Below, piece after piece: positions 16,889 through 43,591 of a stretch of DNA of 64,000 bases (its first letter is position 1; each line of letters starts with the position of its first letter). The notes below the pieces were generated by a model that ran no database searches, was not told the origin of the DNA, and saw only the letters and a list, made by a program, of their open reading frames with translations. The position numbers were made by a program, and so were the translations under genes. The DNA comes from Candidatus Tectomicrobia bacterium (GTDB taxonomy: Bacteria > UBA8248). Location of the stretch: the NCBI GenBank assembly GCA_016192135.1, contig JACPUR010000035.1, positions 1-64,000 of the forward strand. The letters are read 5' to 3'.

Positions 16889-16961
16889 GTAGGGGCGAAC
16901 CTCGTGTTCGCCCCGTGCCGGTCGCCGGTCCGGAGGGGGCGATGACAAGCATCGCCCCTAC
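16889..16961. repeat. Two-hairpin palindrome element (GTAGGGGC superfamily)
   Basis: The element has arm GTAGGGGC, a hairpin with stem GCGAAC/GTTCGC and loop CTCGT, a spacer, then a second hairpin with stem GCGATG/CATCGC and loop ACAAG, closing with GCCCCTAC. The two loops are near complements. Copies of the same order lie at 19590-19652 and, inverted, at 36905-36971. Confidence 0.8.
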
Positions 16962-18160: not shown

Positions 18161-18186
18161 AGGGGCGGTTCGCGAACCGCCCCTAC
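18161..18186. repeat. Palindrome, core GGTTCGCGAACC
   Basis: A perfect palindrome GGGGCGGTTCG/CGAACCGCCCC followed by TAC. It is the same type as at 29867-29894 and 43564-43591. Confidence 0.8.
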
Positions 18187-18224
18187 GAAATCTCGCCGGA
18201 TCCGGTTGGCGGCGAGGGCGATGC

Positions 18225-18252
18225 GTAGGGGCGTATTGCAGTACGCCCCTAC
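18225..18252. repeat. Palindrome, core GTATTGCAGTAC
   Basis: GTAGGGGCGTA, centre TTGCAG, TACGCCCCTAC. One mismatch in the core compared with the perfect copy at 29267-29294. It is paired with the preceding palindrome in the same gene-free gap (18138-18377), which otherwise holds only GC stems. Confidence 0.8.
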
Positions 18253-29792: not shown

Positions 29793-29866
29793 GGGCACGG
29801 CGGGACAGGTGGTGCGGGGGGGTCAACTGAACGCCCCTACGGATGGGGCGGTGGATTGATTCCGCC

Positions 29867-29894
29867 GTAGGGACGGTTCGCGAACCGCCCCTAC
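29867..29894. repeat. Palindrome, core GGTTCGCGAACC, immediately before queE
   Basis: GTAGGGACGGTTCG/CGAACCGCCCCTAC (one mismatch in the left arm). It ends 20 bases before the queE start, so it would lie in the 5' leader of the queE mRNA. Confidence 0.75.
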
Positions 29895-29914: not shown

Positions 29915-30643
29915 ATGATGACGGAAAAGGTCGAAACCGGCACGACGCAGGCACCGGCCGCGCGGCAGCTCCGCTTTCCCCTCGCGGACCCGCTCTTCTA
30001 TTCCCTCCAGGGGGAGGGGGCCACCCTCGGGCGGCCCTCGGTCTTCGTGCGCCTGATGGGCTGCACCGTGGGCTGCGCCTGGTGCGACACGAAGTACAGC
30101 TGGGCGGGCCCTCCCGCCGCGGAGCTCACGGGGGAGGAGATTCTCCGCTACTGCCGCGAGCGCCCCGGCTGCCAGGCGGTTATCACCGGGGGGGAGCCCC
30201 TGGAGAGCCCCTTCTTCGAGCCCCTTCTGCTGCTGCTCCACGAGGCCGGCCTGCGCGTCGAGGTGGAGACCTCGGGCTATCTGGAGCCCTCCCTCGTCGC
30301 CCTGGCCTACGTGGACCAGTGGAACGTCTCCCCCAAGCTCGCCTCGGCCGGCATTTCGCCGGAGAAAAAGCCCCGCTCCCTCGGCTGGCTCGACCGCGCT
30401 AACGAGCCCTACCTCAAATTCGTCCTCCACCATCCCCGCGAGATCGCCGAGGTGGACCAGATGCTCCAGGCCCTCGGGCTCGCTGGCTGGCCCCCCGAGA
30501 GGGTCATCGTCTCCCCGGGCGGAAAAAAGTACGCCGACATGGAGAAGCGCCTTCTCCCCCTGGCCGAGGCGGCCCTGGCCCGCGGTTTCCGGTTCACGCC
30601 CCGTCTGCACGTGATTTTGTGGGGGGATAAGCGGGGGGTGTGA
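29915..30643 (+). CDS. queE: 7-carboxy-7-deazaguanine synthase QueE
   Basis: A 242-residue radical SAM enzyme of the queuosine/7-deazaguanine pathway, contracting 6-carboxytetrahydropterin to 7-carboxy-7-deazaguanine. The non-classical cluster motif is Cys50, Cys54, Cys57 (CTVGCAWCDTKYSW). FYSLQGEGATLGRPSVFVRL is the QueE N-terminus and ITGGEP the SAM-binding strand. The C-terminus FTPRLHVILWGDKRGV matches family norms. Start is ATG 29915 or 29918, after GAGAGG. No queC, queD or queF is in this window. A diverged second copy of its last 24 codons lies at 36335-36406, discussed as a finding. Confidence 0.93.
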   Translation: MMTEKVETGTTQAPAARQLRFPLADPLFYSLQGEGATLGRPSVFVRLMGCTVGCAWCDTKYSWAGPPAAELTGEEILRYCRERPGCQAVITGGEPLESPFFEPLLLLLHEAGLRVEVETSGYLEPSLVALAYVDQWNVSPKLASAGISPEKKPRSLGWLDRANEPYLKFVLHHPREIAEVDQMLQALGLAGWPPERVIVSPGGKKYADMEKRLLPLAEAALARGFRFTPRLHVILWGDKRGV

Positions 30644-30803
30644 GGAACCCCAATTCCCGTCTTTCCTGAACCTGCCCCTCATCCGATGGCCAAATGGAAG
30701 CTTTTTCAAAGAAATACATAGGCTAGCCCAGGAGGGGGGTCGGCCCAAGCACCCCGCGCTGGGGCGGCCATATGGGAATAATCCGCGGCCAGTGGCGTTT
30801 CGC

Positions 30804-30821
30804 ATAAACAGAGTTTATAAT
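30804..30821 (+). promoter_or_regulatory. TATAAT box overlapping a perfect inverted repeat
   Basis: ATAAAC-AGA-GTTTAT (30804-30818) is a 15-bp inverted repeat in an AT-rich patch, and TATAAT (30816-30821) overlaps its right arm. The -35 (TGGCGT at 30793-30798) is poor, which fits a regulated promoter. It lies about 145 bases before the M24 gene. The remainder of 30644-30964 holds no gene that I can support. Confidence 0.4.
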
Positions 30822-30964
30822 TATATTATCTGTGTAACGCGGGGCGTCCCACGCCCAGACTCTCTTTTCGCCTCCCCGGCGGAAAGGGATGTTCCATTAG
30901 TCCTAGGAGCGAGCATGAGATGTCCGTGCTTGGCACGGACCCACCGCCAGAGGAGGAATTTCCG

Positions 30965-32242
30965 GTGACAGAAGCTCATGGCATGTCCTACCCGTTCCAG
31001 GCCACCGACTGGATCAACGGCATCAACATGGACAACCTCCGGGAGGGCCGCCTTAAGAGAGCGAAAACGGAATTATTCGAGAAGCGCAAATTCGGCGCGT
31101 TTCTCTCGCTCAACGAATGGAACACACGCTACATCACGAGCACGTACACCCCCATGTGGACGACCTCCGCCTCGGGCCTGCGCTATTCGCTCCTTGTCAA
31201 GGGCGACGCGCAGCCCATCGTCTACGAGCAGGGGGATATCGGCTATCATACGGAGCGCTTTGCTACCTGGCTGCCGAAGGGCAACGTGAAGTGGGCCATC
31301 ACGGGGATGGGCTGGATCGCGCGCTGCATGGGCGAGCCCGCCCACGCGGCGGCGGTCAAGCGCTTCGTGGACCAGATCTACACCGAGCTCAAGCGGCAGG
31401 GGGTGGAGAAGGAGGTGCTCGCCCTCGACTTCGCCGATCCCGCCATATCGGCCGCCTTCGAGGCCAAGGGGGTGAAGACGAGCGGAGACGGCTACCTCGC
31501 CCTGCTCGACGCGCGCAAGCACAAGATGCCCGAGGAGGTCCAGTGCCTCCGCAACACCTGTTCGGTGGGAGACGCGATGTTCGAGGCGCTCCGCCAGACG
31601 ACCCGGCCGGGCGTGAGCGAGCACGAGGTCCTGGGCGAGGTGTTCAAGGCCTGCTACAAGAGCGGCGGCGAGGTTTATTCTGGCGTGTTCGTCACCTCGG
31701 GGCCCTACTCGTGGCCGAACCTGCGCTGCTGGACAGGCCGCCGCCTCAACCCCGGCGACGTCATCTACATGGACGTTTACAACACCTCCTGGAACGGCTA
31801 CAAGACCTGCTACTACCGCACCTTCAGCCTGGGCGAGCCTTCCAAGGCGACGAAGGAGGCCTACCAGCGGGCCTACGACTGGCTCTACGACTCCATCAGC
31901 GTCATTAAGCCTGGCGTGACATCGAAGGAGATCGCCGAAAAATGGCCCTCGGGCCCGAAGGTGTGGGCGGACATCGGCGTCGTCCACGAGGACCAGACCG
32001 CCGGCAACAACTGGGCGCACGGGATCGGCCTCACGCTTTATGAACCGCCCCTCGTGTGGCGGGGCTGCTCGCTCGATCACCCGATGGTGATCGAGGAGGA
32101 CATGTGCTTCGCCATCGAGACCCAGGAGGGCGACCACCAGGGCCAGGGCGTGCGGATCGAGGAGGTGCTCCACGTGACGAAGACAGGCGTGGAGATCCTC
32201 TCCAAGTGGCCGATCAAGGAGATGACGGTCATCGACATCTAG
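30965..32242 (+). CDS. M24 (pita-bread) family hydrolase with an altered metal site
   Basis: A 425-residue protein of the creatinase/aminopeptidase P family: N-terminal creatinase-like domain (NMDNLREGRLKRAK, WNTRYITSTYTPMW) and a pita-bread C-terminal domain. Of the five metal ligands, Asp270 (YMDVYNTSWNGY), His352 (WAHGIGLTLYEPP), Glu385 (FAIETQEG) and Glu399 (VRIEEVLHV) are present, but the second Asp is replaced by Cys282 (GYKTCYYRTF against the usual GY..D.TRTF). It may bind metal differently or act metal-free, as creatinase does. GTG 30965 has an ideal AGGAGG SD; ATG 30920 does not. It is the first gene of the block bounded by queE tails. Confidence 0.85.
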   Translation: MTEAHGMSYPFQATDWINGINMDNLREGRLKRAKTELFEKRKFGAFLSLNEWNTRYITSTYTPMWTTSASGLRYSLLVKGDAQPIVYEQGDIGYHTERFATWLPKGNVKWAITGMGWIARCMGEPAHAAAVKRFVDQIYTELKRQGVEKEVLALDFADPAISAAFEAKGVKTSGDGYLALLDARKHKMPEEVQCLRNTCSVGDAMFEALRQTTRPGVSEHEVLGEVFKACYKSGGEVYSGVFVTSGPYSWPNLRCWTGRRLNPGDVIYMDVYNTSWNGYKTCYYRTFSLGEPSKATKEAYQRAYDWLYDSISVIKPGVTSKEIAEKWPSGPKVWADIGVVHEDQTAGNNWAHGIGLTLYEPPLVWRGCSLDHPMVIEEDMCFAIETQEGDHQGQGVRIEEVLHVTKTGVEILSKWPIKEMTVIDI

Positions 32243-32303
32243 ATGCTTGACGCGTGTCCCTCCCCCGGCCGGCCCGCCGGGGGAGGGGCGGGAGGAACGG
32301 ACA

Positions 32304-32534
32304 GTGCCCATTTACGAGTTTCACTGCGAGCCTTGCGGCGAGACTTTCGAGTGTATCATGCAGGAGGCTGGCAAGCGCGTGCCGTGCCCAGGCTGCGGAT
32401 CGGATGAGGTGTCCAGGCGGGTCTCCGCCTTCGCCGCGCGGACGAGCGTCCAGCGGCGGGGCGGGGTCGTGGACCTCAGCTCGGGCTGCTGCCCCTGCAC
32501 AAGGGGAGGAGCCGGGCACTTCCACGCCCACTAA
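32304..32534 (+). CDS. FmdB-type zinc-ribbon protein
   Basis: A 76-residue protein, start GTG 32304 after GGAGGAAC. The N-terminal 40 residues are the FmdB zinc ribbon: PIYEFHCEPCGETFECIM, then VPCPGCGSDEVSRRVSAF. The two Cys pairs bind Zn. The tail adds SSGCCPCTRGGAGHFHAH, another possible Cys/His metal site. FmdB-like proteins are often encoded with amidase or acyl-CoA enzymes; the molecular role is not settled. Confidence 0.85.
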   Translation: MPIYEFHCEPCGETFECIMQEAGKRVPCPGCGSDEVSRRVSAFAARTSVQRRGGVVDLSSGCCPCTRGGAGHFHAH

Positions 32535-32573
32535 CGCCTCCCTCCGGCGCGGACCCTTCGGGACGGGAAGCCT

Positions 32574-34112
32574 GTGAACCCAAGCCATATCTTGGCCCGC
32601 TGGGCCGAACGTAGCCCCAACCGCGAGGCGGTTATCTCGGAGGGCGGGCGCCTCACTTGGTCGGCGCTGCGCGAGCGGGTCCAAGCCCTCGCGGGGGGCC
32701 TCGAGCGCCTCGGCGCGGGCCGCGGCGACCGGGTGGGGGTCCTGCTCTATAATTGTCCCGAATTCCTGGAAGCCTACTTCGCCATCTGTCACCTGGGGGC
32801 GATCCTCGTTCCCCTCAACTTCCGCCTCGCCGGGCCGGAATTCGCCTACATCCTTGAGGATGCGGGCGTAAAGATCCTCATCACCGACGCCTCATTCCAT
32901 CCCACCATCGGACCGATCCAGGGCCAACTCCCCCGGCTCGCGCATGTGCTGTGCGTGGGCGGAGACGTTCCGCCGGGCTGGGAAAGTTACGAGGAGAGGC
33001 TTGAAAGGGCCCGCGGGCGGCGGGCCCCCGCGGCGCAAGTGGACCTCGGCGACGTGCAGCGGATCATGTACACCTCCGGCACGACGAGCCGGCCGAAGGG
33101 AGCCATGATCACCCACGGCAACGTCTACTGGAAGAACGTCGCGCATGTCATGGACTTGAACCTGACCGCCGCCGATCGCACCCTCGTCGTGGGGCCGCTC
33201 TACCATGTGGGCGGGCTGGACCTGCCCGCCACGGGGGTGCTCTACATGGGCGGGAGCGTGGTGATCCTCCCCCGTTTCGACGCCGAGCGCGTTCTGGCGG
33301 CGGTCCACGCGGAGGGCGTGACGAACGTTTGGCTCGCGCCCACGATGATCGCCCAGGTTCTGGCGCGGACGGACATCGACCGCTTCGATCTCACGAGCCT
33401 GCGGATCGTCATCGATGGCGGAGAGAAGATGCCGATCCCCCTCATCGAGGAGCTGCGGCGGGTCATCCCGAGCTGTGGTTTTCATGACGCCTACGGGCTG
33501 ACGGAGACCGTCTCGGGGGACACCTTCCTCCCGCCCGCCGACGCGGTGCGCAAGACCGGCTCGGTCGGCCTCCCCACCTACCAGCTCCGCGTCCGGGTCG
33601 TGGACGACGAGCGCCGCGACCTCCCCGCCGGGGAGCTGGGCGAGGTCCTCCTGCGCGGCCCCAAGGTGTTCCCCGGCTACTGGAACAACCGCGAGGCCTC
33701 CGAGGCGGTGCTCGTGGACGGCTGGTTCCACACGGGCGACATCGGCAGGATGGACGGGGAGGGCTACCTGTACATCGTGGATCGCAAGAAAGACATCATC
33801 ATCAGCGGGGGCGAGAACATCGCCTCCACCGAGGTGGAGCGGGTGATCTATGAAGACCCCCGCGTAGCCGAGTGCGCCGTCATCGGCGTTTCGGATGAAC
33901 GGTGGGGGGAGGTTCCTTACGCTTTTGTCGTCCCTAAACCCGGCCATCGGGACATCGGCGAGGAGATCCTGGCGCGCTGCGCGGCCAGCTTGGCGAAGTT
34001 CAAGGTGCCCAAGGGAGTGACGTTCATCGATGCCCTTCCGAGGAATCCTTCGGGCAAGGTGCTCAAGCGAGATCTCCGGGAGAGGGCCGCATCGGTGCGC
34101 CGGGGGCCGTGA
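32574..34112 (+). CDS. Acyl-CoA ligase (AMP-binding, ANL superfamily)
   Basis: A 512-residue adenylate-forming enzyme that activates a carboxylic acid to acyl-AMP and then acyl-CoA. The P-loop is YTSGTTSRPKGAMITH, the A5 motif YGLTETVSGD, the A7/A8 hinge GWFHTGDIGRMD and VDRKKDIIISGGENIAS, and the catalytic lysine is in PRNPSGKVLKRDL. Start GTG 32574 follows GGGAAG. Length is typical of short/medium-chain or aromatic acid ligases. With the ADH and ACAD that follow at gaps of 3 and 11 bases it forms an operon for oxidising an alcohol or acid via its CoA ester. Confidence 0.93.
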   Translation: MNPSHILARWAERSPNREAVISEGGRLTWSALRERVQALAGGLERLGAGRGDRVGVLLYNCPEFLEAYFAICHLGAILVPLNFRLAGPEFAYILEDAGVKILITDASFHPTIGPIQGQLPRLAHVLCVGGDVPPGWESYEERLERARGRRAPAAQVDLGDVQRIMYTSGTTSRPKGAMITHGNVYWKNVAHVMDLNLTAADRTLVVGPLYHVGGLDLPATGVLYMGGSVVILPRFDAERVLAAVHAEGVTNVWLAPTMIAQVLARTDIDRFDLTSLRIVIDGGEKMPIPLIEELRRVIPSCGFHDAYGLTETVSGDTFLPPADAVRKTGSVGLPTYQLRVRVVDDERRDLPAGELGEVLLRGPKVFPGYWNNREASEAVLVDGWFHTGDIGRMDGEGYLYIVDRKKDIIISGGENIASTEVERVIYEDPRVAECAVIGVSDERWGEVPYAFVVPKPGHRDIGEEILARCAASLAKFKVPKGVTFIDALPRNPSGKVLKRDLRERAASVRRGP

Positions 34113-34115
34113 CGG

Positions 34116-35165
34116 ATGCTCGCCGCCCGGTGGCACGGAAGGGGGGACGTTCGGCTGGAGGATATCTCCGAGCCATCCCCCGGCCGGGGCGAGGTTTTGG
34201 TTGAGGTCGGGTACTGCGGGATCTGCGGGACCGACCTCCACGAGTACCGCCATGGCCCCCTTCTCATTCCCCGCCGCCCGCACCCCTTGACGGGCCGTCT
34301 GCCCCCCGTTGTCCTGGGGCATGAGTTCTCCGGAACCGTCGTCGCCCGGGGACCGGGCGTCTCCGCCCCGGGGGAGGGCGCGCGGGTGGCCGTGAACCCC
34401 TGCCTCTCCTGCGGGCAGTGCGCGCAGTGCAAGGAGGGGAAGGCGTATCTTTGTTCCAGGCTGGGGAGCATCGGCTTCGCCGCCGACGGGGGGTTCGCCC
34501 GCCGGGTGGTCTGCCCGGCCGCCAATTGCCATCCGCTGCCGGAGGGGCTGCCGCTTGAGGGGGCCTCCCTCGCGGAGCCCCTCGCCGCCTGCATCCACGC
34601 TTGGGGCCGGGGAGGGGGACGGGCCGGGGAGGCCGTCCTGATCGTGGGGGCGGGGACGGTGGGGCTTCTTCTGCTCCAGGTCGCGCGCGGCCGGGGGGCG
34701 GGGGAGGTTCTCGTCGTCGAGCCGCTGGCCGCCCGCCGGGAGAGGGCGTTGGCGCTCGGGGCCGCGGCCGTCTTCGATCCCGCGCGGGACGAGGATCGCG
34801 CTCGGCTGCGCGAGAGAGGAGGAATCCCTCTCGCCTTCGAGTGCGTGGGCCGGCCCGCGGCGCTCGATACGGCGTTGCGCGCCAGCGGGCGGGGGGGGCG
34901 CGTCGTGGTGGTGGGCTTGTTCACCGAGGCGGTCCCTGTGGATTTCTTTCGGCTTTTTGCCCAAGAAAAAACGATTTTCGCCTCGACCGCCTACACCGAC
35001 GCCGAAATGGGCGAGGCGGTGGCGTGGCTCGCGGAGGGGCGGGCCGCCTGGGAGCCCATCGTAAGCGGGCCGATTCCCCTGGCCGACATCGTGCCGGCCG
35101 GTTTCGGCAGGCTCTCGGAGGCCCCTTCGTCCCACATCAAGCTTCTCGTCGATCCAAGCGGTTGA
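34116..35165 (+). CDS. Zinc-dependent medium-chain alcohol dehydrogenase
   Basis: A 349-residue MDR enzyme similar to 2,3-butanediol/sorbitol dehydrogenases. Catalytic zinc ligands lie in GYCGICGTDLHEY and LGHEFSG, with the later Glu in SLAEPLAACIHAW. The structural zinc loop is CLSCGQCAQCKEGKAYLC. The NAD-binding motif is LIVGAGTVGLLLLQVA with acidic EPLAARRE, implying NAD rather than NADP. Three bases separate it from the ligase stop, so translation is coupled. It probably oxidises a secondary alcohol. Confidence 0.92.
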   Translation: MLAARWHGRGDVRLEDISEPSPGRGEVLVEVGYCGICGTDLHEYRHGPLLIPRRPHPLTGRLPPVVLGHEFSGTVVARGPGVSAPGEGARVAVNPCLSCGQCAQCKEGKAYLCSRLGSIGFAADGGFARRVVCPAANCHPLPEGLPLEGASLAEPLAACIHAWGRGGGRAGEAVLIVGAGTVGLLLLQVARGRGAGEVLVVEPLAARRERALALGAAAVFDPARDEDRARLRERGGIPLAFECVGRPAALDTALRASGRGGRVVVVGLFTEAVPVDFFRLFAQEKTIFASTAYTDAEMGEAVAWLAEGRAAWEPIVSGPIPLADIVPAGFGRLSEAPSSHIKLLVDPSG

Positions 35166-35176
35166 GGAGCCTTTCA

Positions 35177-36316
35177 ATGGATTTCTCTCTCTCCGACAAA
35201 GCGCGCATGTTGCGCGACCTCTGCCGGGATTTCGCCGGCCGCGCGATACGCCCCCACGCCGCGAAGTGGGATCGGGAGTGTCATTTCCCGGTCGAGGCGT
35301 TCGGCGAGATGGGGGAGCTTTCCCTCATGGGCCTCCTGGTGCCCCCCGCCTACGGGGGAATGGATGTGGGCGCGGTGGCCTACGTCGCCGCGATGGAGGA
35401 GATGGCCGCGGCCGACAACTCGGTGGCGGCCTGCTGGAACGCCCATTTGACGATCGGCAGCTTGCCGATCCTCCACTTCGGCACGGAAGAGCAGAAGCGC
35501 CGCTGGCTCGTCCCGCTGGCGCGGGGAGAGAAACTCGGCAGTTGCGCCTTCACCGAGCCCGGCGCGGGAAGCGACCTGAGCGGGATCGAGACGCGCGCCC
35601 AGAGGACCAAGGAGGGCTGGAAGCTTCGGGGGCGGAAAATCTTCATCACCAACGCCGGCACGGAGATGAGCCTGGGCCCCCTCGTGCTGGCCCGCACCGC
35701 GGAGAGCCGCTTCGGGTTCTTCGTGGTGCCTCGCGGCACCCCCGGCTTCGGAATGGGGCCGAAGGCCGAGAAGCTCGGCTGGCGCTCGATGGACACCCGG
35801 GAGCTCATCTTCGACGACTGCCTCCTGCCGGCGGACCATCTGCTCGGCGAGAACGACGTCGAGAGCATCCGCCAAGCGACCGAGACGCTCGCCGTCGGCC
35901 GCATCAGCGTGGCGGCGCTCTCGCTGGGCCTGGCGCGCGCCTGCCTGGACGCTTCTCTCGCCTACGCCCTCGAGCGCAGGCAGTTCCGCGCGCCGATCGC
36001 CTCCTTCCAGGCCATCCGGTCCAAGCTCGCCGACATGGCGACCCGCGTCGAGATGGCGCGGCTGATCACCTTGAAGGCGGCCTGGCTCCATGACCGGGGG
36101 GAGCCGTTCCGCCAGGAGGCGGCGATGGCCAAGCTCGCCGCATCGGAGCTGGCCGTGGACGCCTCGCGGGAGGCCGTCCAGATACATGGCGGCTACGGGT
36201 ACATGGAGGGCGAGTTCCCGGTGGCCCGCTACTACCGGGACGCCAAGGTGCTGGAGATTGGCGAGGGGACGAGCGAGATCCTGCGCCTCGTCATCGCCAA
36301 GGGGCTCGGCTGCTGA
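35177..36316 (+). CDS. Acyl-CoA dehydrogenase with canonical active site
   Basis: A 379-residue FAD-dependent ACAD introducing an alpha,beta double bond into an acyl-CoA. Unlike the three paralogues at 14-20 kb it has the normal catalytic Glu363 (EIGEGTSEILR), a standard CAFTEPGAGSDLSGIETRA region without insertion, and a typical FAD/ADP motif (QIHGGYGYMEGEFPVARYYRD). TTGAGGAGCC lies before ATG 35177. It is the last gene of the ligase/ADH/ACAD operon; the frame downstream of its stop runs straight into a queE-like tail. Confidence 0.95.
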   Translation: MDFSLSDKARMLRDLCRDFAGRAIRPHAAKWDRECHFPVEAFGEMGELSLMGLLVPPAYGGMDVGAVAYVAAMEEMAAADNSVAACWNAHLTIGSLPILHFGTEEQKRRWLVPLARGEKLGSCAFTEPGAGSDLSGIETRAQRTKEGWKLRGRKIFITNAGTEMSLGPLVLARTAESRFGFFVVPRGTPGFGMGPKAEKLGWRSMDTRELIFDDCLLPADHLLGENDVESIRQATETLAVGRISVAALSLGLARACLDASLAYALERRQFRAPIASFQAIRSKLADMATRVEMARLITLKAAWLHDRGEPFRQEAAMAKLAASELAVDASREAVQIHGGYGYMEGEFPVARYYRDAKVLEIGEGTSEILRLVIAKGLGC

Positions 36317-36334
36317 GGGCTCCGCCCCCGCGGG

Positions 36335-36418
36335 GCCGCTCTGGCGCGGGGTTTCAGGTTCACGCCCAGGCTGCACGTGTTGCTGTGGGGGGATAAGAAA
36401 GGGGTTTGGCCCCCATAG
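36335..36418 (+). pseudogene. Remnant of a second queE 3' end
   Basis: Codons 36335-36406 read AALARGFRFTPRLHVLLWGD then KKGV. This matches the last 24 residues of the intact QueE (30569-30640) at 22 of 24 positions, then runs on as WPP to a TAG at 36416-36418. By my count DNA identity is 58/72, and 8 of the 10 differing codons are synonymous, so this copy descends from a once-functional but diverged queE. There is no upstream queE sequence: the match stops abruptly at about 36335, 18 bases after the ACAD stop. Confidence 0.85.
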
Positions 36419-36426
36419 GAGCCCCC

Positions 36427-36843
36427 ATGCCCATCTCTCCCTGGGATTGCTCCGTCTCCCTTCCCAGCCCGGACGGGCGGCTGACGGCGGTCATCAAAAA
36501 TGCCGTCGAGATCGGGATGGGCGCCCCGACGCGAGGCAGGCTGGCGCTCTCGAACCGGATGTCCCTGGAGGACTGCAACCCCTCGATGGCGTGGTCGGAG
36601 GACTCGCAGCTCCTCGCCGTTCCGCAGTGGCATTACGACCCGAAGCCGGGCCCGGGCGGGGCCCGGCCCGTTCAGCGGCTGGCCATCATCTCCCCCGGGC
36701 GGCGGCAGGTCCGCTACGCCCCCGGCACCTACCGCATCTTGGAACTCCATGCGTTCGCCGGGGGCGTGGTGCGCGGTGTGGATTCCCCCGCCTACGCCCC
36801 CCGGCCGTTCGAGGTGGACGTGAGCAGGATCGAGTGGGAATGA
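36427..36843 (+). CDS. Conserved-looking hypothetical protein
   Basis: A 138-residue protein starting at ATG 36427 (AGGAG five bases upstream), eight bases after the queE remnant. It reads like one or two beta-propeller-type blades: SVSLPSPDGRLTAVIKNA, LSLEDCNPS-like MSLEDCNPSMAWSEDSQLLA, and QRLAIISPGRRQVRYAPG. There is no signal peptide or catalytic motif. In the arrangement before the block arrived it would have been the gene immediately after queE. Function unknown. Confidence 0.7.
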   Translation: MPISPWDCSVSLPSPDGRLTAVIKNAVEIGMGAPTRGRLALSNRMSLEDCNPSMAWSEDSQLLAVPQWHYDPKPGPGGARPVQRLAIISPGRRQVRYAPGTYRILELHAFAGGVVRGVDSPAYAPRPFEVDVSRIEWE

Positions 36844-36904
36844 GAGGAACCCTGCCGCTGTCATTCAGAATGATGGTAAATAATCGTCTTGCCTGGATGA
36901 TCCT

Positions 36905-36971
36905 GTAGGGGCGATCCTTGTGATCGCCCCTTGAATTTTGGGGAATGGGCGAACACGAGGTTCGCCCCTAC
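36905..36971. repeat. Two-hairpin palindrome element, inverted orientation
   Basis: The reverse complement of the 16889/19590 element. On the minus strand it reads GTAGGGGC, stem GCGAAC/GTTCGC with loop CTCGT, spacer, then stem GCGATC/GATCGC with loop ACAAG and GCCCCTAC. Compared with the other copies the last stem pair of the second hairpin is swapped from G-C to C-G, a compensatory change. Confidence 0.8.
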
Positions 36972-37000
36972 GACGGTGCCGATGAATCCAGGCGCATAAA

Positions 37001-37031
37001 ACGCCCCGATGGAAGCTCTCCAGCGGGGCGT
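37001..37031 (-). terminator. Rho-independent terminator after the aldehyde oxidoreductase gene
   Basis: ACGCCCCG (37001-37008) pairs with CGGGGCGT (37024-37031). Read on the minus strand the stem is followed by TTTTATGC; on the plus strand by CGTTGTTT, so it may serve both directions. It lies 22 bases after the stop of the minus-strand gene. Confidence 0.65.
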
Positions 37032-37053
37032 CGTTGTTTCACGAGATAGCGCC

Positions 37054-38925
37054 CTACGCCGGGATCTTGACCCCTTCCTTCTTCGTGAGCTCGTCCCAGT
37101 TGCGCTCGACGCGCCGCTTGAGCTCGGCCATGAACTCGCGGGTGATGAAGCTGGGCATCTTCACGTTCGGGTTCTTCTTCTCGTACACCTGGGCCGGGAT
37201 GTCGTACTCCTCGTCGGTGTAGCCCACCTTCTTCTCGAGGAGGCGGCCCCGGAGGTAGGTGCGGCGGACGGCTCCCTTCACGTCCTCGTCGGTGGCCGAG
37301 AGGCCGTACGAATCGTTGATGGAGTCCACTACGTTCTTGTCCGGCACGCCGGCGAACTTGCAGGTGCCGATCAGGTCGTCGCGGGTGTAGTAGATCCCGT
37401 TCATGACGGCCTTCTCCCAGTAGTCGATGTCGGTCTTCTGGCCGTCAAGGATCAGGAGGAGGAAGGTCCGCATGCTCATGTGGCCCCCCGCGAGCGCCCA
37501 GGGGTAGCCCGGGTTGGTCTCGGGGAGGTAGGCGGGGTACTCGAGGCCCTTCCCCTGCATGGCGAAGGAGAGGTCCCCGCACTGCTGGGCGAGGCGCATG
37601 GTGCCCTGGCCGAGCTCGGGGCACCGGCCCAGGGCGCACTCCCTCATGAGCTCCATCATCTTCCGGGCGTCGCCGAAGCGGATGCCGCCGAGGACCGGCT
37701 TCTCCGGGTGGCGCTCGTTCCACTCCATGGCGTAGCTGAAGGTGGCGCCCAGGCTGATGGCGTCGTAGCCCAGCCGGTCGCCCAGCTCCACGAGCTCGAG
37801 GGACTCCTCGGCGCCGTAGACCCCGCAGTTGGCCGTCAGGAGGTCGAGCGGCTCGTAGTCGAACTTGACGCGGAACTTGCCCTTCTTGGCCTTGCGGCCC
37901 TCGGCGGTCTCGCCCTCGGGCCGGTCGTAGATGTTCTTGTGGCAGGCGATGCCGCACTTGAAGCAGGACTCGTCCTTGACGACGTAGGGCTTCTCGAAAG
38001 ATGAGCGGTAGAGCGGGACGGCGTCCGTGTTCCCCGGCGCCCAGAAGTTCTTCTCGGGGAGGCACCCCAGGGGGTGCAGCCCCGCGATGTTGCGCCAGGT
38101 GCCGCCCCCGCCCTCGCCCTTGTAGGCGTCTCGGTAGTTCTTGGAGCCCGCGCCCCGGGCGATGACCTGGTTGGCCTCCTTCACCACGGCCGACACGCCC
38201 GACTTGTCGTCCGGGGCCTGGGAGACGATGGCGATGAGGTTCTTGCTCCCCATGACGCCCCCGAAGCCGCCCCGCCCGCAGAACCGGGGCTTGCAGTCGC
38301 CCGACCTGAGCTGGTTATCGGTGCTCAGGGCGATGGCGGCCATGCGGTTGGTCTTCCAGTTCTCGCCCGTCTGGGCGATGACGGCGAAGTGCGCGTCCTC
38401 GTACTGATCGCGCAGCGCCATGATCTTCTCGTGGCTGTCCTTGCCGAGGAGATGCGAGGCGTCCGCGAGGGACAGCTTGGGCGGGCCGCCCAGCGCCGCG
38501 CTCTGGATGAGCAGGGTGACGGGCTTGGCGCTCCGGCCGAGGAAGATGATCTCGTCCAGGCCGGCGCAGGCGGTCTTGACGCCGAACTTGTCCGAGCCCG
38601 CCGACCACATGGCCGAGGGCGCCCCCTTGCGCGTGCTCTTCAGGGGGCTGTAGCCCCCGAAGAAGGTGCGAAGCCCCGTCATCACGCTCGAGCCCGTGAA
38701 GCAGCCCAGCTCCATGACCAGGGGGGCCGGGGGGGCGTAGGGGTCGGGCACGTCGTAGCGCGAGAGCACCTTGAAGATGCGCCCGATGCCCCCGAGGAAG
38801 TCTTCCATGTCCTGGCAGGTCCTCTCCTCGAGGGTGACCTTCCCCGAGGCGAGGTCCACCGTGGCGCTCCGGTACTTGTAGTCCGTGGGAGCGAGCTTCT
38901 TGCCGTTCCTGGATTCGGTCCACAT
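37054..38925 (-). CDS. Aldehyde:ferredoxin oxidoreductase-family (tungsten) enzyme
   Basis: A 623-residue AOR-family protein. The N-terminal domain contributes to the tungstopterin site (DFLGGIGRIFKVL, GCFTGSSVMTG, FGVKTACAGLDEIIFLGRS). The cubane 4Fe-4S cluster is held by Cys321, Cys324 and Cys328 (CFKCGIACHK) with a fourth Cys in DDLIGTCKF. Family members oxidise aldehydes to acids, or as BamB-type subunits reduce aromatic acyl-CoA. ATG 38925 is preferred (AGGAGG 11 bases upstream) over GTG 38937, which overlaps the SD. It is co-directional with an enoyl-CoA hydratase and ferredoxin reductase just upstream. Confidence 0.92.
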   Translation of the reverse strand: MWTESRNGKKLAPTDYKYRSATVDLASGKVTLEERTCQDMEDFLGGIGRIFKVLSRYDVPDPYAPPAPLVMELGCFTGSSVMTGLRTFFGGYSPLKSTRKGAPSAMWSAGSDKFGVKTACAGLDEIIFLGRSAKPVTLLIQSAALGGPPKLSLADASHLLGKDSHEKIMALRDQYEDAHFAVIAQTGENWKTNRMAAIALSTDNQLRSGDCKPRFCGRGGFGGVMGSKNLIAIVSQAPDDKSGVSAVVKEANQVIARGAGSKNYRDAYKGEGGGGTWRNIAGLHPLGCLPEKNFWAPGNTDAVPLYRSSFEKPYVVKDESCFKCGIACHKNIYDRPEGETAEGRKAKKGKFRVKFDYEPLDLLTANCGVYGAEESLELVELGDRLGYDAISLGATFSYAMEWNERHPEKPVLGGIRFGDARKMMELMRECALGRCPELGQGTMRLAQQCGDLSFAMQGKGLEYPAYLPETNPGYPWALAGGHMSMRTFLLLILDGQKTDIDYWEKAVMNGIYYTRDDLIGTCKFAGVPDKNVVDSINDSYGLSATDEDVKGAVRRTYLRGRLLEKKVGYTDEEYDIPAQVYEKKNPNVKMPSFITREFMAELKRRVERNWDELTKKEGVKIPA

Positions 38926-39059
38926 GTTGCCTGCCACCTCCTGGAGACGCGGCTTCGGAGGCCTCCGGAAAGAGGCCCTGCGGGAGGGTCATTTGCGAAT
39001 CACCGGCGCCATTATTTCGCATCGGGCGGGGAGGGGCAAGCCCGGGATTGCCCGAGGCG

Positions 39060-43451: not shown

Positions 43452-43480
43452 GCAGGGAGCGTATTGCAATACGCCCCTAC
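43452..43480. repeat. Palindrome, core GTATTGCAATAC
   Basis: GCAGGGAGCGTATTG/CAATACGCCCCTAC: core perfect, left arm degenerate. A partial copy (AGGCACAGGGGTCTGCTCCTAC) lies 35 bases on, and another full palindrome at 43564. Confidence 0.7.
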
Positions 43481-43563
43481 GTCCCCGTTGCATGATGGGC
43501 ATTGTGGCAGGGGCAGGCACAGGGGTCTGCTCCTACGGTTACGGTTTTTGTGGATGCGGTTCC

Positions 43564-43591
43564 GTAGGGGCGGTTCGCGAACCGCCCCTAC
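43564..43591. repeat. Palindrome, core GGTTCGCGAACC
   Basis: A perfect 28-bp palindrome, GTAGGGGCGGTTCG and its complement. It lies 30 bases before the DUF488 start. Confidence 0.85.

Follow-up and report, generated by a model that had tools for sequence, protein, structure and literature searches.

A displaced queE 3' end at the queE/AOR junction of a Candidatus Tectomicrobia genome may mark patchwork recombination between queE alleles

In the 64,000-nt stretch of DNA analysed here (the window), which is part of a 261-kb contig in an assembly of 3.92 Mb and 41 contigs, an intact queE gene is followed by five genes and then by a second, divergent copy of its own 3' end. On balance, we regard this tail copy as the mark of a small and fairly recent patchwork recombination, as opposed to the arrival of the whole five-gene block. 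The evidence also leads us to lean towards a view of the junction between queE and the gene for aldehyde:ferredoxin oxidoreductase (AOR) as an integrase-free spot of gene turnover in this family, at which the tail would have originated through recombination, homologous at one end and illegitimate at the other, with a divergent queE allele.

The displaced queE tail

The repeat was delineated by direct-repeat and codon comparison:

29918..30643, + strand: intact queE, encoding 7-carboxy-7-deazaguanine synthase, a radical SAM enzyme (Pfam Radical_SAM)
30569..30640, + strand: 3'-terminal 24 codons of queE, forming the first repeat copy
36335..36406, + strand: displaced queE tail, 24 codons

The intact gene matches the NCBIfam QueE models below their cut-off, and its product shows 86-88% amino acid identity to QueE of the relatives G001 and G002. 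Over the 24 codons the two copies agree in 58 of 72 bases and 22 of 24 residues; ten codons are changed, eight of them synonymously, leaving two residue changes, all as counted in the initial annotation. In the displaced copy the stop codon is replaced by TGG and the frame continues to a TAG at 36417 (read from the sequence). The full direct repeat (30554-30642 and 36320-36408) spans 89 nt at 78% identity and is the longest in the region. When 14 substitutions were placed at random, the mean number of residue changes was 8.9, and two or fewer were obtained in 0 of 20,000 simulations. Since the observed substitutions are nearly all synonymous, the tail probably belonged to a working queE for most of its divergence, in line with the earlier proposal that it derives from a functional but different allele.

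The match at 36335 is indeed to queE: in the 3.9-Mb assembly it is the sole convincing match apart from the gene itself (E-value 2.4e-14 for DNA and 1.7e-8 for protein), the next DNA matches being 38 and 27 bp long. On the 261-kb contig it is likewise the only nearby direct repeat that pairs the 3' end of an intact gene with a fragment; the other nearby direct repeats checked there resemble paralogues or palindromic repeats. The longest exact run common to both copies is 14 bp, which makes k-mer misassembly of the tail unlikely.

Compared with the three queE genes in its own genus, the displaced tail has 12-14 differences in 72 positions; for the queE genes of other genera the count is 18-24. 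This points to an allele not sampled here whose divergence is roughly at the genus level, the 72 bases being too short for a tree. In agreement with the initial annotation, the tail is very unlikely to be a recent local duplication, being no closer to the queE of its own genome (14/72) than to the queE of other species. The same count, with its nearly all synonymous differences, makes a local tandem duplication comprising queE and adjacent genes, with subsequent deletion, the least probable of the explanations weighed here, even though the start of contig C85 in the bin of the relative G012 looks like 256 bp duplicated in tandem across 11 bp of shared sequence; that case is found at the end of a contig, in a bin that is contaminated, and resembles the G010 strain.

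The block and its counterpart in a congener

The genes between the two tail copies are those listed in the initial annotation. The extent of the block has been corrected to 30920-36316, and the AT-rich spacer assigned to its front is the queE-M24 intergenic region, which can partly be aligned in G001 and G002:

30644..30919, no strand: AT-rich queE-M24 intergenic spacer
30920..32242, + strand: M24 metallopeptidase-family hydrolase, at the same position in G001, G002, G007 and G012
32301..32534, + strand: FmdB-type zinc ribbon protein, following M24 in G002, G007 and G012
32574..34112, + strand: acyl-CoA ligase, the first of three module genes
34116..35165, + strand: zinc-type alcohol dehydrogenase (ADH), the second module gene
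35177..36316, + strand: acyl-CoA dehydrogenase (ACAD), the third module gene

The region to the right of the block comprises:

36317..36341, no strand: ACAD 3' flank with a hairpin (read by eye), common to the window and G002
36342..37052, no strand: 711 bp between the ACAD flank and AOR, present in the window and absent from G002
36427..36843, + strand: orphan gene (138 aa) without a counterpart in the other 17 genomes of the family
36905..36971, no strand: copy of the dispersed GTAGGGGCG palindrome (repeat search)
36999..37052, no strand: hairpin past the AOR gene, missing in G002 and similar to the one that relatives have at this place
37054..38937, - strand: AOR, the conserved right-hand border

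The congener G002 has the order queE-M24-zinc ribbon-ligase-ADH-ACAD-AOR, so that the five-gene block, 90% identical at the nucleotide level, lies between queE and the convergent AOR with neither the tail copy nor the 36427 gene. The alignment places 3 bases between the ACAD flank and AOR in G002 and 711 in the window, and these 711 bp contain the queE tail, the 36427 gene, the dispersed palindrome and the hairpin on the AOR side. In the window the ACAD flank runs into the queE tail over a short microhomology, about GGCCGCTC (read by eye). The initial annotation had the block move into the 3' end of queE, which is at odds with a congener that carries it at the same place without tail or 36427 at its end. 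The palindrome belongs to a family with 17 matches in the window against 0.8 expected (e.g. 16889-16961, 18178-18252, 29832-29894, 36905-36971 and 43472-43591) and dozens genome-wide.

The collinear flanking DNA is mostly 82-92% identical to that of G002 and the block, at 90%, falls inside this range, so nothing marks it as a recent arrival. We favour the reading in which the tail and 36427 would be the newcomers and the block the resident, a polarity that depends on one comparison because G002 is the only relative to span the whole block. The mirror image, which comes near to the proposal of the initial annotation and in which a resident queE'-36427-AOR arrangement had its left part replaced by a donor queE with the whole block and kept the tail of the resident queE', is a less likely but still serious possibility. 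It would yield exactly the same structure, the AOR side retains the family-type hairpin, and the four-fold-site identity to G002 is 0.81-0.86 in the three-gene module against 0.70-0.75 in flanking genes (0.71-0.75 in SDR, M24 and AOR), which could mean a later arrival of the module. Against it, M24 and the spacer keep their position in G001 and G002, the four-fold-site identity of M24 to G002 is not exceptional (0.73), the nucleotide identity of the block is at background, and queE'-36427 occurs in no relative. With respect to homologous recombination in the border genes, the queE and M24 trees, built from three congeners, are weakly different, with 77% support at queE.

The time of the event bears on another alternative, in which queE-block-tail-36427-AOR was ancestral in the genus and G002 deleted the 711 bp. 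Some of the 711 bp were probably lost by deletion in G002, since the hairpin beyond AOR, kept in the window and in relatives, is missing there. However, a neutral remnant dating from the G000-G002 split is expected to have collected about 11 random substitutions and thus many more than one or two residue changes: the probability of at most one is about 0.002-0.01, and if two residue changes are counted it is about 0.015-0.04. The older event is thus rather unlikely, and the tail is probably younger than the split from G002, an estimate that assumes neutrality and is based on 24 codons.

The orphan gene 36427

The product of 36427, which starts 20 bp after the displaced tail, has one clear homologue among 386 genomes searched, 50% identical and encoded in an unrelated 7.4-Mb genome. 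This homologue (L187, 1483-1875) lies beside a LexA-like ORF and belongs to an unnamed small protein family; its flanks, which are short, show no queE. No useful match for 36427 came from plasmids, viral contigs, PHROGs, Pfam, NCBIfam or PDB, and a single-sequence structure prediction was unsuccessful (pLDDT 31). The suggestion that 36427 was the ancestral neighbour of queE holds in part: given the 20-bp gap it probably adjoined the divergent allele, but as a conserved neighbour of queE it was rejected, being absent from all 17 other family genomes. No relative has queE directly before 36427, and the empty junctions read queE-AOR.

Probable gene turnover at the queE/AOR junction

We compared 18 family genomes, all of which appear to be metagenome assemblies and some of which are contaminated (G012, 8%); the named relatives retrieved with queE come from metagenome assemblies of Candidatus Tectomicrobia and Nitrospinota. 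queE and AOR are conserved as borders and the contents between them differ. The junction is empty in 8 of 18 genomes (seven of genus g5, and G014), where queE is followed by the convergent AOR after ~90-100 bp. It holds a 175-aa membrane-like ORF in G008 and an antisense TylF-type methyltransferase in G010 and G012, in the latter followed by M24. In G004 this methyltransferase and the zinc ribbon persist merely as fused fragments, in G003 a rhodanese follows queE, and in G001 the contig ends after queE-M24. No queE was found in G005.

Five genomes from three genera have a close orthologue of M24 (at least 80%), in no case outside this junction, and M24 with the zinc ribbon occupies it in two further genera. 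The ligase-ADH-ACAD module is at the junction in G002 and at another locus in G010 and G012, both of genus g3. With M24 bound to the junction and the three-gene module also placed elsewhere, the block was assembled in at least two steps, and its description as a self-contained catabolic unit is not upheld; as a single transferred unit it is ruled out by G002, G007, G012 and G010. The other locus of the module is found at L175 5782-9526 in G012 and L176 445-4189 in G010, and in G012 it adjoins glyoxalase-like and amidohydrolase-like ORFs (judged by eye).

In G007 the order is queE, a cupin-like gene, a queE-tail copy, M24, zinc ribbon, an AOR-tail copy, a 354-aa ORF and AOR. Both tail copies of G007 adjoin novel genes; queE-tail copies are present at the junction in two genera and an AOR-tail copy in one. 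The AOR-tail copy of G007 comprises the last 33 codons plus flank beyond the 354-aa ORF (L039, i.e. G007:C245, 7932-8106 and 9366-9540) and is the mirror of the queE-tail copy on the same contig (L039, 5247-5556 and 6017-6315). The repeated queE tail and stop codon of G007 are only 82% identical (86/105), but past them the intergenic part is almost the same in both copies, with 4 mismatches and 12 gapped positions in ~190 bp, which suggests a mosaic history. The G007 repeats share a 99-bp exact run, which makes an assembly error harder to exclude in G007 than in the window. It is quite improbable, yet conceivable, that some property of the junction favours the recurrent capture of genes, each bringing along a copy of a border-gene tail, i.e. 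an unrecognised integrase-free form of insertion via gene 3' ends.

Integrases and site-specific integration

Phages and islands are known to integrate at the 3' ends of protein-coding genes, as e14 does in icd, and the window resembles that case in having a second, synonymous-rich copy of a gene tail downstream. It differs in that there is no integrase and no defined element, and in that the G007 repeats involve both border genes. Pfam searches of all block genes revealed no integrase or transposase in the window interval, and the scanned inserts of the relatives contain no integrase-type families. Six integrase-type genes are present in the assembly; the only one on the window's contig, at 222.6 kb, is about 186 kb away, which leaves the initially proposed integration with regeneration of the gene tail devoid of integrase support. 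Such an integration at the queE 3' end, with an attachment site carrying the gene tail and later loss of the integrase, would account for the synonymous-rich copy and for a second genome with a queE-tail copy. We consider it very doubtful, because the G007 queE repeats extend ~200 bp past the stop codon and another affects AOR, so that the repeats are not confined to one gene end, and because the block of G002 ends without a tail copy. Our literature search retrieved no paper on queE as an integration site.

Proposed mechanism and known parallels

The other process named in the initial annotation, recombination between two queE alleles, is the likely kind of event. In the simplest mechanism, one end of DNA coming from relatives would enter the junction by homologous recombination within a conserved border gene, and its opposite end would be joined illegitimately, without homology. 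In the window, the end of ACAD would have been joined to a divergent queE allele at about codon 243, with 36427 downstream of that allele, leaving the displaced queE tail behind at the ACAD join. A donor genome in which 36427 follows queE was not found. The genome encodes a ComEC-type competence protein, the presence of which would permit transformation without proving it.

Integrase-free hotspots of horizontal transfer, with recombination at the flanking core genes, have been described by Oliveira et al. 2017 (PMC5635113). The queE/AOR junction is similar in that variable genes turn over between two conserved neighbours without mobility genes; it differs in its size (0 to about 6 kb), in the gene-tail scars that are kept, and in extending across genera of one uncultured family, not within species. 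For displaced 3' regions at T6SS loci of Vibrio and at Rhs loci, homology-facilitated illegitimate recombination has been proposed (PMC5361080). In both cases the incoming DNA would be anchored in a conserved gene and the 3' end of the older allele would remain behind it together with a downstream gene, but in the window the conserved gene is the housekeeping queE with its full reading frame intact, and the cargo is metabolic or of unknown function, with no effector-immunity pairs. The mechanism proposed here is compatible with both descriptions.

Conclusions

The displaced queE tail would represent a well-preserved scar of recombination between alleles in an uncultured phylum. It provides a worked example of a block enclosed by two repeats that need not be what moved, and the queE/AOR junction may be used as a marker of gene turnover in this lineage.
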